From positions 1-33,828 of IMG/VR virus record IMGVR_UViG_3300034418_001924: a DNA stretch of 33,828 bases; one strand, given 5' to 3'. The stretch comes from a virus. The position numbers were made by a program, and so were the translations under genes. This document shows positions 3,553 through 33,739 of the stretch, one piece after another (position 1 is the first letter of the stretch; each line of letters starts with the position of its first letter). The notes under the pieces are model-generated. The model was given only the letters and a program-made list of their open reading frames with translations, did not search any database and was not told where the DNA came from.

Positions 3553-3831
3553 ATGACAAATGATGTTGATGATTTATTGCTACAAGCAAGACAATCAATA
3601 GAACATAATAATCAAGAAAGAGATTACGAAGCTACTCAAAGTGGTTTAACTGAAACTATAAAAGAGCTGGATAATCTAAAGAAAATGTCAGAGGAATTTA
3701 CTATGATTAGAAATAATTTATTAAAGAAATTATATAATCAACACTCTGTATCAGCACTTAAATTGAGTGCAGTCACAGGGTTAAGTAGACAAATGGTACA
3801 TTTAATCGTAAAGGAGGACAACAATGGCTAA
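3553..3831 (+). CDS. Helix-turn-helix DNA-binding protein (92 aa)
   Basis: Residues 1-60 are highly charged and helical, probably a coiled-coil dimerisation arm (leucines around 32-57). Residues 65-87 fit a helix-turn-helix: S-A-L-K-L-S-A-V-T-G-L-S-R-Q, with the glycine at the turn and a Ser-Arg-Gln start of the recognition helix. AAAGGAG sits upstream of ATG 3553. The last codons overlap the next gene (start at 3824). A local transcription regulator is the natural reading; the palindrome at 137-150 or the repeats at 1097-1264 are possible targets. Confidence 0.65.
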   Translation: MTNDVDDLLLQARQSIEHNNQERDYEATQSGLTETIKELDNLKKMSEEFTMIRNNLLKKLYNQHSVSALKLSAVTGLSRQMVHLIVKEDNNG

Positions 3832-4630
3832 GTTTAACTTAGAAAATTATGAAACAGTAGAGGATAGATTAAAAGTATTCTGGAAAGAAAATCCAGAGGG
3901 TCGTATCTTTACAGAAGTAGTACACGAAACTGAAGATGGTAGTTGTGTAACAATCAGAGCTTTTGTATACAAGAACGAGGGTGACAGTAATCCAATATCT
4001 ACAGGAATAGCACAGGAAACAAAAGGACAGGGTGGTTTTGCTAATACGGATGCTTGGGTAGAAAACTGCGAAACATCTGCTATAGGTAGAGCATTAGCTA
4101 ATTGGAAATATCAAGGCAGCAATAAGCCTAGACCTAGCCAACAAGAGATGAGTAAAGTTGTTAAATCTACACCAAAAGTAGAGGAGGAATTAACTTTTGA
4201 TGTTGGTGAACCTGTAAATAATGCACAGGAAATTAACGAAATCATTAAAGGTATGGAACCTGATGATAAGTTAATGAAAAAGTATAAGAAAACTGCTTAT
4301 GACAAGATGATTGCAGATGGATTTTCAAAAGATGTTAATGATTGGAGTGAAGAACAGGTCAAAGACTTTATTGAAGCGTTTGCAGACGCTAAAAACAATA
4401 GCAGTATCATAGATGAGATTGAAGCAGAGCTTGGTGAGGTCAAAGTCATCACTAAGAACTGTCCTGAATGTGGAAAGTCTGAATATATAGAGGACAACAG
4501 AGAGAAAAAGCAATCTGACCCACAGAAATTTGGAAAGATACCATCTTGGTCTTGTAGTAAATACAATGGTGCTAATGGTTGTGGTTGGGCAGGTTGGGAT
4601 GATACTGATTGCCCAACAGAATGGCTTTAG
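3824..4630 (+). CDS. Phage recombination-type (ssDNA-annealing-like) protein with C-terminal zinc ribbon
   Basis: 268 aa. The N-terminal domain (1-100) contains E-N-C-E-T-S-A-I-G-R-A-L-A at 80-92. This resembles the ETSAIGRALA signature that I associate with phage single-strand-annealing or ssDNA-binding proteins, especially in actinobacterial phages; that association is from memory. A flexible acidic middle (115-205) leads to a zinc ribbon with C213, C216, C244 and C253. The role would be pairing or protecting single strands in replication or recombination. ATG 3824 follows AAAGGAGG inside the HTH gene. A close variant without the ribbon would be more usual, so the ribbon may add DNA or partner contact. 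Confidence 0.55.
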   Translation: MAKFNLENYETVEDRLKVFWKENPEGRIFTEVVHETEDGSCVTIRAFVYKNEGDSNPISTGIAQETKGQGGFANTDAWVENCETSAIGRALANWKYQGSNKPRPSQQEMSKVVKSTPKVEEELTFDVGEPVNNAQEINEIIKGMEPDDKLMKKYKKTAYDKMIADGFSKDVNDWSEEQVKDFIEAFADAKNNSSIIDEIEAELGEVKVITKNCPECGKSEYIEDNREKKQSDPQKFGKIPSWSCSKYNGANGCGWAGWDDTDCPTEWL

Positions 4631-5874: not shown

Positions 5875-5990
5875 ACGATTTAAGAATGTTAGATAACTGC
5901 GTTGAATGTGGTTCAGATAGAGAAACAACATTAACTTATGATGGTAAATGTGTTGGCTGTATTGCATATATGATAGAGGACTGCGTATGA
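5871..5990 (+). CDS. Zinc-ribbon mini-protein (39 aa)
   Basis: C10/C13 and C27/C30 make two CxxC knuckles, with C38 extra. The start codon overlaps the previous stop and its own stop overlaps the next start (ATGA at both ends), so it sits in a translationally coupled chain. Unknown function. Confidence 0.55.
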   Translation: MNDLRMLDNCVECGSDRETTLTYDGKCVGCIAYMIEDCV

Positions 5991-6079
5991 ATAAAGTAAT
6001 ATGCAGTAATTGTAAAGAAAAAAAATATTTAGATGGAGATACAGGACTTTGCTATGACTGTAACAGAGGACAAATATAG
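5987..6079 (+). CDS. Zinc-ribbon mini-protein (30 aa)
   Basis: C6/C9 and C22/C25 give CxxC-N12-CxxC. The ATG overlaps the preceding TGA, and the gene overlaps the SET-domain gene start at 6054 by 26 nt in another frame. It immediately follows another mini-protein of the same type, so the pair may be a duplication that has diverged. Confidence 0.5.
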   Translation: MNKVICSNCKEKKYLDGDTGLCYDCNRGQI

Positions 6080-6371
6080 ACCATTGCCTGAATATCTTAC
6101 TATTAAACCTAGTGAGATAGAAGGGCTAGGTTTATTTACATTAAAAGATTTAGAAGAAGATAAGTCACTAGGAATGACACATCTTTACAGACATTCAGAA
6201 CCTAATCACTATTTAAGAACACCACTTGGTGGATTTATAAACCATAGTAAAGAACCTAATTGTCATTTAGTAACAGTAACTAGCTTTGGTCCTAGAAAAT
6301 TTCTTTATACCAAAAGAAAAATAAAAGCTGGTGAAGAACTCACAGTAAAGTACACAATGTATGAAGTATAA
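6054..6371 (+). CDS. Minimal SET-domain protein (putative protein lysine methyltransferase)
   Basis: 105 aa. Visible SET signatures, in order: G-L-G-L-F at 24-28; G-G-F-I-N-H-S-K-E-P-N-C at 59-70, matching the NHSxxPN cofactor-binding loop; and G-E-E-L-T-V-K-Y at 93-100, ending in the catalytic Tyr. SET enzymes transfer methyl from AdoMet to protein lysines. The size is close to the shortest known viral SET proteins; there is no pre- or post-SET cysteine cluster, although the zinc mini-proteins upstream are adjacent. ATG 6054 is chosen because AGGA lies 7 nt upstream; ATG 6033 has no ribosome site. The substrate is unknown: a host DNA-binding, ribosomal or phage protein is possible. Confidence 0.75.
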   Translation: MTVTEDKYRPLPEYLTIKPSEIEGLGLFTLKDLEEDKSLGMTHLYRHSEPNHYLRTPLGGFINHSKEPNCHLVTVTSFGPRKFLYTKRKIKAGEELTVKYTMYEV

Positions 6372-6735
6372 TAAATTCTACGATATTGATTTACCTTTTG
6401 GTGAAGTCTACGAGCAGCAGCTTAAAGAGTTCTTTGAGGGTAAGAATATAGAAGTCAAAACAGAACGAGATATATGGAAAACAACTGGCAATCACGCTGT
6501 TGAGTTCAGATGTAGGGGCAATTTAAGTGGTATCAGTACTACTAAAGCAGAATATTGGGGCATAGTATTAACAATAGAGAGTAAGGCAGTAATGTTTTAT
6601 GTAATACCAGTAGAAGAATTAAAAAAACTTACTAGGAAATATTATTATATGAATCGTATAGTAAATGGTGGTGATGACAACGCTTCTGAAATGGTATTAG
6701 TTCCATTAAAAGAGATTGCAACTTATTGTTTATAA
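6361..6735 (+). CDS. PD-(D/E)XK-like nuclease (124 aa)
   Basis: Residues 8-70 look like the core of a small restriction-type nuclease fold: a helix with E15 in F-G-E-x-Y-E, then I-E-V-K at 30-33 (the E-x-K of the active site), K-T-T-G-N at 40-44, E48, and S-G-I-S-T-T-K-A-E-Y-W at 56-66. This pattern recurs in small phage proteins annotated as nucleases, some suggested as Holliday-junction resolvases. It starts inside the end of the SET gene (11-nt overlap) and is the last forward gene, ending 6 nt into the 3' end of the opposing gene. Fold moderately sure; substrate unknown. Confidence 0.55.
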   Translation: MKYNKFYDIDLPFGEVYEQQLKEFFEGKNIEVKTERDIWKTTGNHAVEFRCRGNLSGISTTKAEYWGIVLTIESKAVMFYVIPVEELKKLTRKYYYMNRIVNGGDDNASEMVLVPLKEIATYCL

Positions 6736-18350: not shown

Positions 18351-19301
18351 TTAGGAAGTTGTTAATCCTGTGATTTTAGCGTGGAAAAGTTCTGGACCAT
18401 ATTCAAGTCCAATTTCACCATAAACTTGGTATTTATAAGCAGCACCTGTTTGAGCGAGTGGCTCAACAAAGAAGTGTCCTTTTCCTGGAATATCCAAGAA
18501 TACTGGCTTACAGAAAGCCAAGTCCACGATTGCTACTTGTCCTGCTGGCATATGTCTGTCAAAGACAATTCCAACTTCACCAAAGTCAGTTTCAATAGTT
18601 GAAATATTGACACCACCCATATTTCTATCTCTTGGTGCAAGTGATAATGCACTTGAATAGATTGAGGATAGTTTTTGCTTTTGGAAGCTATTAGCCATAA
18701 TTACAGGCATCTCAAATGGAGCACCTGAATCTGCCATTAACTTCAAAGCACCATCAACTGCTGCTTGGTCTAATACTGTGTCAGACCCTGCTACCTGATT
18801 GTCAAAGACATTGGTAGAAATAGCTGCCAAGATACCTCTTGTTTTTCTTGCTGTTGATACATCTGTATCTGCTACATATGTACCTTGCAAGAAAGAATAT
18901 TCAATATCTCTTGCAGCTCTTTTTAGAGCCATATCCAACTGGAATGCCAATTCATCTTGAACTGGTTGGTTACCAATAATGGATTGTCCATTAAGGTTTC
19001 CTGTTGCTGCTTGTTTGGTATAAGATACCTGTACACCATATTGCATAATTTGAGTAACATTAATTACTTCACTTCTGCTTCTTTCTGCGAAACTTGGGTC
19101 AGCTCCTTCAACTGCTGCTGTTTGTGCAGCTGCTGCGTTATCAACTGTTTGCCAAGTAAATTGTTTTGATGTAACTGATTTTCCACCAGTTAAACCACCA
19201 ATAGCAGAGAGAAAAGGTGTGTCGTTTGGAGTGATGTTAAATAACTCACCCACATAATTAGGGAGGTCATAAGAATCTCCCATTCCTGATACTGCACCCA
19301 T
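18351..19301 (-). CDS. Major capsid protein, HK97-fold
   Basis: 316 aa. N-terminal G-D-S-Y-D-L-P-N-Y-V-G-E-L-F-N-I-T-P-N-D-T-P-F-L is typical of major capsid proteins of the SU10/DUF5309-like type, followed by W-Q-T-V-D and R-S-R-S-E-V-I-N-V-T-Q-I strands. The later P-V-I-M-A-N-S-F-Q-K-Q-K-L and the C-terminal G-E-I-G-L-E-Y-G-P-E-L-F-H-A-K-I fit the same family. Good ribosome site (AAAGGAGA). It lies 14 nt after the scaffold-like gene, and codon use is less extreme than elsewhere, as expected for high expression. Confidence 0.88.
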   Translation of the reverse strand: MGAVSGMGDSYDLPNYVGELFNITPNDTPFLSAIGGLTGGKSVTSKQFTWQTVDNAAAAQTAAVEGADPSFAERSRSEVINVTQIMQYGVQVSYTKQAATGNLNGQSIIGNQPVQDELAFQLDMALKRAARDIEYSFLQGTYVADTDVSTARKTRGILAAISTNVFDNQVAGSDTVLDQAAVDGALKLMADSGAPFEMPVIMANSFQKQKLSSIYSSALSLAPRDRNMGGVNISTIETDFGEVGIVFDRHMPAGQVAIVDLAFCKPVFLDIPGKGHFFVEPLAQTGAAYKYQVYGEIGLEYGPELFHAKITGLTTS

Positions 19302-31786: not shown

Positions 31787-31988
31787 CTTCATCCTCATCA
31801 TCATAATACATAAAAGTTGAACTGATTATCATATAACCAAATGGAAATACCATTGGTGGCATTTGGTCACGAAATATTCTAGTTCCTCTTTCACCTGCTG
31901 TTTCTTCAAAAATAATATCATCACCTTTTTCATCTACATCATCAAGACAAAAATTAACTATTTCTTCAAATTGTTTGTTGATAGACAT
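31767..31988 (-). CDS. Small acidic protein (73 aa)
   Basis: Unrecognised. Middle segment P-P-M-V-F-P-F-G-Y-M-I-I is hydrophobic; the C-terminus is very acidic (D-D-E-D-E-D-G-Y-E-E-F). It starts in a TAATG overlap with the portal stop and overlaps the next gene by 20 nt. Translational coupling to the portal suggests a portal- or packaging-linked role. Confidence 0.6.
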   Translation of the reverse strand: MSINKQFEEIVNFCLDDVDEKGDDIIFEETAGERGTRIFRDQMPPMVFPFGYMIISSTFMYYDDEDEDGYEEF

Positions 31989-33739
31989 TAGCCACCCATT
32001 CCTGCTAAGAGCTGTGCAATACCTGGTGGTGGACCTTGTGGTGGTAAGGTCTGTCCACCAAGTAATGCTTCTTCAGCTTCTGACATCTCTGGTTCTTCTG
32101 CTGTAAAGAACTTATCCAATATGTTTTGCATATTATCTGGATTCTTTCTTATCTGCACAACAGCCATAGTTGCCTTTGGATTACCCTGTTGGGCTTGTGC
32201 CAACAATGTGTCAAATAGTACACTATCTGCTTTTTCTTTTGTAATTCTATCGTTTACTCTAACAAGATTATCTAATCCATCTAAGTTTTCTTGTAGAGTT
32301 TGTCTGTCAATAATACCAGCTTGTAGTAACTGTAAACCTGTAACAATCTTTTGTGGTTCATCATATCCAGCCATAGCACCATACACTCTGCGTGTTTTGA
32401 AACTATCTGCTATGTCTTTCTCTGGGTCATATGTTTCAGAATAGAAAGTATTATTCATATATCCTGATAATGATTTAGTTTTACCACCATACATTTTTTG
32501 GTCCCACTCTAATCTTTTAGCATCTATCATCTCTATAGCATCAGACATTACTGTATGATATTCTCTAATCATTAATGACATAGATGCACCTAGTTCTTCT
32601 AATCCTCTACCAGTTGCAAAACTAAGTGGTGATTGTGAGTCATCAGATACAGGATAAGAACCACCAACACGAAGTTGTCGTTCTATTCTATCTATCTGTT
32701 GAAAAATCTGATAAGGAACATTTGATGCAGGTTTGCTCACTTGTGTTCCTGGTGCTAGATAGTTTACAGCAAATCTACCTTTACGATATTGTCCACTCTC
32801 TATCTCACCAGAAATGTTTGTTTCTGTAAATACTGCATCTTCCATAGCTATTATTGACATCACATTAATCTTTGCCATTGAAGCCATAAGACCTATGATT
32901 TGGTCATACTGTCCTTGCAATCTATCAAATGCAAATTTCTTGCCAATGACAAATGCTGGACCACTATCAAGTGGGTTAGGTATGAAATCAAGAATAGTTC
33001 CTGAAGTCATATGGAAAATATAAGTTCCTTCTAAGTTGTAATACTCTGCAATTAAATCTCCATCTCCATTGGAGTTAGCCCAAGAACCATTGTATTGGTC
33101 TGTATAAGCAGAAGCATATGCGTTACCTACTCCAAGAATGTTTGTTTGGTAAGCATCTTTTTCTCTTTTCATAATCTTATCTTTTGCTTCAGGATAAGTT
33201 CTAGCTAATGCTTCTTTTGGAACTCTACGAATAATTGCCATTTCTTTTGGTTGTTGGTCTGCACCAAAGTAACCAGGAAAACAGTTATATGGGTCACGAA
33301 GTTCAGCTATAGGATATGGTGTTCCATTAGCATCTTTCTTTTCTCTAATAACCCATACAGCAAAACCATAACCAGGTAGCCATCTACCTACTTGTGGCAT
33401 TTGTAAATCTAATTTTTGTACCTCATCATAAGCATTAACAATACGAGAAATCTTTTCTGCTTTCATTCTTGCTCTATCAGAATCTTTACCATTAGGTACA
33501 TCTACTTTGAGGTTTGGAATACGACCAATCTTTTGTGCTAAGTGTTCAAGTCCTGACATCATTAAGTTAGGAACAGGAATTTGCCAATCTTGGAAACCTT
33601 TAAGTTGGTCACCTAGTAACGCCATAATACCATCAGGTCCACCATTCATAATTGCTCTAATACGACCTCTAGTTGTATATGAACTATTGTTATCAAAGTG
33701 CAACTGTGTAATAGCGTATTGTATTTCTTCTGGTGTCAT
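31988..33739 (-). CDS. Portal protein (583 aa)
   Basis: The length and fold pattern suit a portal: helical N-terminus, a hinge with G-Y-G-F-A-V-W-V-I-R-E-K, then A-E-L-R-D-P-Y-N-C-F-P-G-Y-F-G near 145-160, and a long helical C-terminal part rich in Gln/Asn ending in Pro/Gln-rich P-P-Q-G-P-P-P-G. Portal rings let DNA pass during packaging and ejection. It lies immediately downstream of the presumed terminase end, with a 1-nt gap between stop and ATG. Confidence 0.75.
   Translation of the reverse strand: MTPEEIQYAITQLHFDNNSSYTTRGRIRAIMNGGPDGIMALLGDQLKGFQDWQIPVPNLMMSGLEHLAQKIGRIPNLKVDVPNGKDSDRARMKAEKISRIVNAYDEVQKLDLQMPQVGRWLPGYGFAVWVIREKKDANGTPYPIAELRDPYNCFPGYFGADQQPKEMAIIRRVPKEALARTYPEAKDKIMKREKDAYQTNILGVGNAYASAYTDQYNGSWANSNGDGDLIAEYYNLEGTYIFHMTSGTILDFIPNPLDSGPAFVIGKKFAFDRLQGQYDQIIGLMASMAKINVMSIIAMEDAVFTETNISGEIESGQYRKGRFAVNYLAPGTQVSKPASNVPYQIFQQIDRIERQLRVGGSYPVSDDSQSPLSFATGRGLEELGASMSLMIREYHTVMSDAIEMIDAKRLEWDQKMYGGKTKSLSGYMNNTFYSETYDPEKDIADSFKTRRVYGAMAGYDEPQKIVTGLQLLQAGIIDRQTLQENLDGLDNLVRVNDRITKEKADSVLFDTLLAQAQQGNPKATMAVVQIRKNPDNMQNILDKFFTAEEPEMSEAEEALLGGQTLPPQGPPPGIAQLLAGMGG

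Follow-up and report, generated by a model that had tools for sequence, protein, structure and literature searches.

The virus record IMGVR_UViG_3300034418_001924 (33,828 nt, analysed over its whole length and called the window here) encodes a genuine stand-alone SET domain with the predicted overall fold of SET enzymes, and the protein is probably an active methyltransferase. The preferred reading, with a probability of about 0.55, is that it is a mini AdoMet-dependent SET enzyme acting in trans on lysine or another amine of an abundant host or phage protein, in a way that would favour infection. Its fold, its cofactor and tyrosine motifs, the constraint on the gene and the mobility of the gene were established by computation. 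The SET gene and its two overlapping neighbours are as follows.

5987 to 6079, plus strand: four-Cys mini-ORF of 30 aa, overlapping the start of the SET gene by 26 nt; kept only in near relatives (L002, with a similar one in L003)
6054 to 6371, plus strand: minimal SET-domain protein of 105 aa, recognised by translation, Pfam, PHROG, AlphaFold2 and Foldseek
6361 to 6735, plus strand: PvuII-like, nuclease-like protein of 124 aa (phrog_13596), overlapping the end of the SET gene by 11 nt; adjacent here but not constantly associated with SET

Identity and fold of the SET protein

The 105-aa protein matches the Pfam SET family (PF00856) with E=1e-11 and 45.6 bits, against a cut-off of 22.4 bits, and a PF00856 search across the whole phage record returns this ORF as its sole SET match (E=2.3e-12). 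An alternative in-frame ATG at 6033 would lengthen the product to 112 aa. The protein is a member of phrog_28741, which it matches over nearly its full length (E=5e-22). This group, labelled ‘unknown function’ in PHROGs, corresponds to the ‘SET domain containing protein’ of uncultured Caudovirales; no function is recorded for it, and isolate records read hypothetical protein. An NCBIfam search gave no match.

A family profile built from 31 sequences matches MLL4 (3e-12) and vSET (2.9e-8) in the PDB, and MLL3 and MLL1 are also matched. With the same alignment as input, AlphaFold2 produces a model (pLDDT 85, pTM 0.76) that Foldseek pairs in the PDB with MLL1 and MLL3 (TM up to 0.74) and vSET (TM 0.68) at probability 1.00; its hits among the viral models of BFVD are SET proteins encoded by uncultured Caudovirales and by giant viruses. 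The preliminary description had named a minimal SET protein of the vSET type with the signatures GLGLF, FINHSxxPNC and GEELTxxY and nothing else, encoded by a phage. All of this stands: the motifs are present, and the predicted fold has the SET core whose absence would have counted against the reading. The protein is a stand-alone domain in the range of about 100-120 aa from which pre-SET and post-SET are absent; Pfam finds no second domain beside SET, and even the SET-I segment is gone. Portal and capsid genes in the same record confirm the phage origin.

Comparison with a relative of 85% identity (L002) gives dN 0.099, dS 0.54 and a dN/dS of about 0.18. Across eleven pairs, dN/dS ranges from 0.07 to 0.4, with nine of the ten remaining pairs at 0.07-0.30 and one at 0.40. 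Purifying selection acts on the SET gene, which is genuine and constrained.

Motifs and the substrate pocket

Five conserved segments are recognised in the protein.

6075 to 6089, plus strand: N-terminal signature [YWF]-x-P-L-P, residues 8-12; residue 8 is aromatic (Y, W or F) in 85 of 85 representatives
6123 to 6137, plus strand: GLGLF, the GxG AdoMet motif, residues 24-28, from alignment and profile
6168 to 6182, plus strand: L-G-x-[TS]-H, residues 39-43, aligned with the MLL strand GIYMF that bears lysine-channel aromatics; the His is almost invariant
6216 to 6260, plus strand: R-T-P-L-G-G-F-I-N-H-S-x-x-P-N, residues 55-69, the family signature with the NH AdoMet motif; Arg55 lies at the conserved Asp of ‘D-A’
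6330 to 6353, plus strand: G-E-E-L-T-V-K-Y, residues 93-100, the C-terminal (pseudoknot) segment; Glu95 and Tyr100 are invariant

In the window protein, the last two segments include FINHSKEPNC at residues 61-70 and GEELTVKY at 93-100. Eight residues (G26, G40, R55, F61, N63, N69, E95 and Y100) are identical in all 85 representatives, drawn from phages and bacteria alike, while H43 and H64 are conserved in 98-100%, G24 in at least 96%, and about 95% have T or S at position 42. Since the AdoMet-binding GxG and NH motifs and the C-terminal Tyr are invariant or nearly so in both the 31-sequence and the 85-sequence sets, the protein is probably catalytically competent.

Among characterised enzymes, vSET (PBCV-1 A612L) is likewise virus-encoded and stand-alone, without pre-SET or post-SET, and the profile matches its whole core. 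It is a dimeric viral H3K27 methyltransferase that acts on histone H3 (PMC7019647), whereas the host of the phage enzyme is a bacterium without nucleosomes, in which histones are not to be expected. The vSET core is also the longer of the two: 88 profile positions cover 102 vSET residues, which indicates that the SET core of the phage family is the smaller. The MLL/KMT2 SET domains are closest in sequence and fold, and have GxG, F/Y-INHS-x-x-PN and EELT-x-x-Y in common with the phage protein. In contrast to them, the phage protein has neither SET-I nor post-SET and lacks one strand, and the distance from GxG to the strand aligned with GIYMF is about 25 residues shorter than in MLL4, a figure counted by hand from the profile alignment and the MLL4 sequence.

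The channel aromatics and the D-A pair of MLL/KMT2 are replaced in the phage family. In the MLL alignment, T42 stands opposite the Tyr and residue 44 opposite the Phe of G-I-Y-M-F, positions at which the family has T or S (42) and, for the most part, a non-aromatic residue (44); in MLL1 these are the lysine-channel residues Tyr3883 and Phe3885. The strand carrying the third MLL channel aromatic appears deleted, R55-T56 occupies the place of the D-A pair in the profile alignment, and the columns of the lost channel residues hold no substitute aromatics. Of the aromatic lysine channel, as read from a profile alignment and not a structure, Tyr100 alone is kept. It is chiefly these altered positions that call for caution over a lysine substrate.

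Another point of comparison is BurB (9L4T, 9L4V), also a small SET enzyme, bacterial and outside chromatin biology, but with 172 aa and a tetrameric assembly against the 105 aa of the phage protein. BurB belongs to a virulence-compound pathway. It is a SET-domain methionine S-methyltransferase acting on free methionine, and its active-site Tyr124 is not catalytic; the Y124F variant retains over 60% activity (PMC12542666). Retention of Tyr100 is therefore not decisive for a lysine substrate. Because the nearest relatives with known function are lysine methyltransferases, a protein amine is favoured as the acceptor, and a protein lysine is likely as the substrate.

Genomic neighbours and possible host

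The overlaps of the SET gene with the zinc mini-ORF upstream and the ORF downstream, reported earlier, are real. The description of the downstream neighbour as nuclease-like is also fair, since PvuII endonuclease is the best PDB match in Foldseek (E=0.003, probability 0.99, TM 0.44-0.49) of its AlphaFold2 model (pLDDT 86.5). A C-terminal GGDDNASEM motif is invariant in this protein, whose PHROG is labelled ‘unknown function’.

The proposal that zinc mini-protein, SET protein and nuclease act together is not borne out. Of about 58 phage clusters of SET, only 3 have the nuclease-like family immediately beside it, and a CxxC mini-ORF precedes SET in 3 of 49 clusters, near the 4.4% background before other genes. 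When the same gene pair is sought in related phages, its members come apart: L210, L211 and L214, with a nuclease 88-90% identical, carry the same 61-aa upstream gene, but there it is directly followed by the nuclease-like gene, and both the zinc ORF and SET are absent from the place; L002 keeps the zinc ORF and SET, but has a different upstream gene and lacks the nuclease on the downstream side. All three genes occur together in L212 and L213. Beside the zinc ORF of L002, the nearest relative, a different gene (L002:4178-4669) shows PD...EVK-type nuclease residues by eye and has no Pfam match.

No dominant family emerges among 94 immediate SET neighbours searched for a constant partner; dUTPase, MazG, gp25, PAPS reductase, HNH and terminase subunits each account for 2-4 of them. 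A phosphoesterase (phrog_284) was rejected as a partner, as it is frequent yet part of the backbone of one phage group. SET itself is kept despite changing neighbours in pelagiphages, cyanophages and other phages. Synteny thus indicates accessory, free-standing cargo that is gained and lost and has no obligatory partner, from which action in trans is inferred.

Elsewhere in the window, a 268-aa protein (3824-4630; phrog_11717, ‘unknown function’) with a zinc-ribbon-like C-terminal end looks like a single-strand annealing protein. The nearest isolates for the portal (31988-33739) and major capsid protein (18351-19301) are actinobacteria phages of Streptomyces and Mycobacterium, a related SET contig (L108) is binned with a marine actinobacterium, and the GC content of the window is 33%. 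On these grounds, a low-GC marine actinobacterium is a possible host.

Distribution and exchange between phages and hosts

Searching with the single sequence gave 73 viral loci, and a profile search at least 598 confirmed relatives on IMG/VR contigs; the phages that carry the gene are mostly marine. Named carriers include Pelagibacter phage Kolga EXVC016S, cyanophage P-RSM6, Prochlorococcus phage P-SSM7 and Marine virus AG-345-P14, in whose records the gene is a hypothetical protein or left without annotation. Bacterial genome collections contain a further 49 SET loci. Judged by their neighbours, some of these are phage contigs (e.g., L085, L086, L092, L102, L108, L113 and L124) and many are chromosomal, in Flavobacteriaceae, Porticoccaceae, Formosa-like MAGs, SAR86, Saccharibacteria and Pelagibacteraceae. 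A sample of Flavobacteriaceae, the family of genome G001, has a SET match in 16 of 301 genomes (5%).

The gene names around chromosomal copies come from a reading of translations. In Formosa-like marine flavobacterial MAGs, SET lies within an arginine biosynthesis operon ordered argG-argC-SET-proC-argD-argF (L088:4659-4952, L118:5995-6288 and L093), where start and stop codons almost touch around it. In Porticoccaceae, it sits 3' of a fabA-fabB-like pair (L096, L097, L100, L114, L120, L121 and L127) and is convergent with a peroxiredoxin-like gene and SSB. An apparently chromosomal copy from a Pelagibacteraceae single-cell genome (L122:5998-6279) is placed by the tree within cyanophage copies, which suggests capture from a phage.

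The SET tree (86 sequences, 106 columns) is weakly resolved and needs eight changes between phage and cell, at least four of them on strongly supported branches. Together with the nesting of the Pelagibacter copy, these changes argue for a mobile gene, one that phages and hosts have by this tree exchanged several times.

Proposed function and alternative explanations

In the proposed mechanism, the phage would produce the SET methyltransferase during infection. AdoMet would be bound by GxG (residues 24-26) and NH (residues 63-64), and the C-terminal segment with Tyr100 would thread beside the NH loop in the SET pseudoknot, closing the methyl-transfer channel. As free-standing cargo, the enzyme would act in trans and most likely methylate lysine, or another amine, of an abundant and conserved host or phage protein, a modification that would favour infection. 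The catalytic step itself, the protein acceptor and the advantage gained during infection are inferred. No conserved neighbour gene of the phage family points to the protein substrate. In Cellulophaga baltica under phage infection, methylated peptides roughly double, and the targets include EF-Tu, DnaK and capsid proteins; none of the phages in that study is known to encode a methyltransferase (PMC13288928). This rise offers a plausible setting for a phage SET enzyme, not evidence for one.

A bolder and more tentative reading is that marine phages, and the bacteria that acquired the gene, carry the smallest known SET family, with a pocket in which an invariant [T/S]-His plus Arg stand in for the aromatic lysine channel and accept something other than lysine. 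Phages would then employ a fold best known for histone methylation to modify a metabolite, or an unusual site on a protein, during infection. The main rival to a protein substrate is rather unlikely: an active methyltransferase, BurB-like in kind, that would act on a small molecule such as an amino acid, a polyamine or some other metabolite, and through which the phage would alter host metabolism. The loss of the aromatic channel fits this idea, as do His43, Arg55 and [T/S]42, which suggest a polar pocket, although the pocket location of His43 and Arg55 is taken from the profile alignment and not from a structure. SET-I, the usual helper in peptide binding, is absent, and chromosomal copies adjoin metabolic genes in Formosa-like MAGs and Porticoccaceae, but these neighbours vary by clade. 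BurB provides a precedent, with methionine as substrate, yet it is missing from the best 60 PDB matches of the family profile, in a profile search as distinct from a pairwise alignment.

Many small phage proteins are inhibitors, and the small size of this one and its loss of the substrate-side SET-I would also fit a catalytically dead fold that binds AdoMet or a protein as a decoy or adaptor, perhaps to inhibit a host defence. This is improbable, given that no clade has lost any of the AdoMet and Tyr positions, purifying selection acts on the gene and bacterial lineages retain chromosomal copies. Least probable is methylation of the adjacent nuclease-like protein, or a module with it and the zinc mini-protein; despite the overlapping genes, near relatives hold one without the other, and synteny speaks against the three-gene module.

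Significance

Viral SET proteins, namely vSET and those of giant viruses, are already known, as is the bare SET annotation in uncultured phages. A search for a paper on the phage SET family found none, with subscription journals outside its coverage, and phages go unmentioned in a review of bacterial SET proteins from 2014. As far as the literature was covered, a conserved minimal phage SET family with a changed pocket has not been described before. A widespread family of compact phage methyltransferases gives a direct handle on the methylation rise in phage-infected marine bacteria. Its SET core, the smallest found here, would show what the SET fold can dispense with, and the family may add a second example of SET enzymes working outside lysine chemistry.
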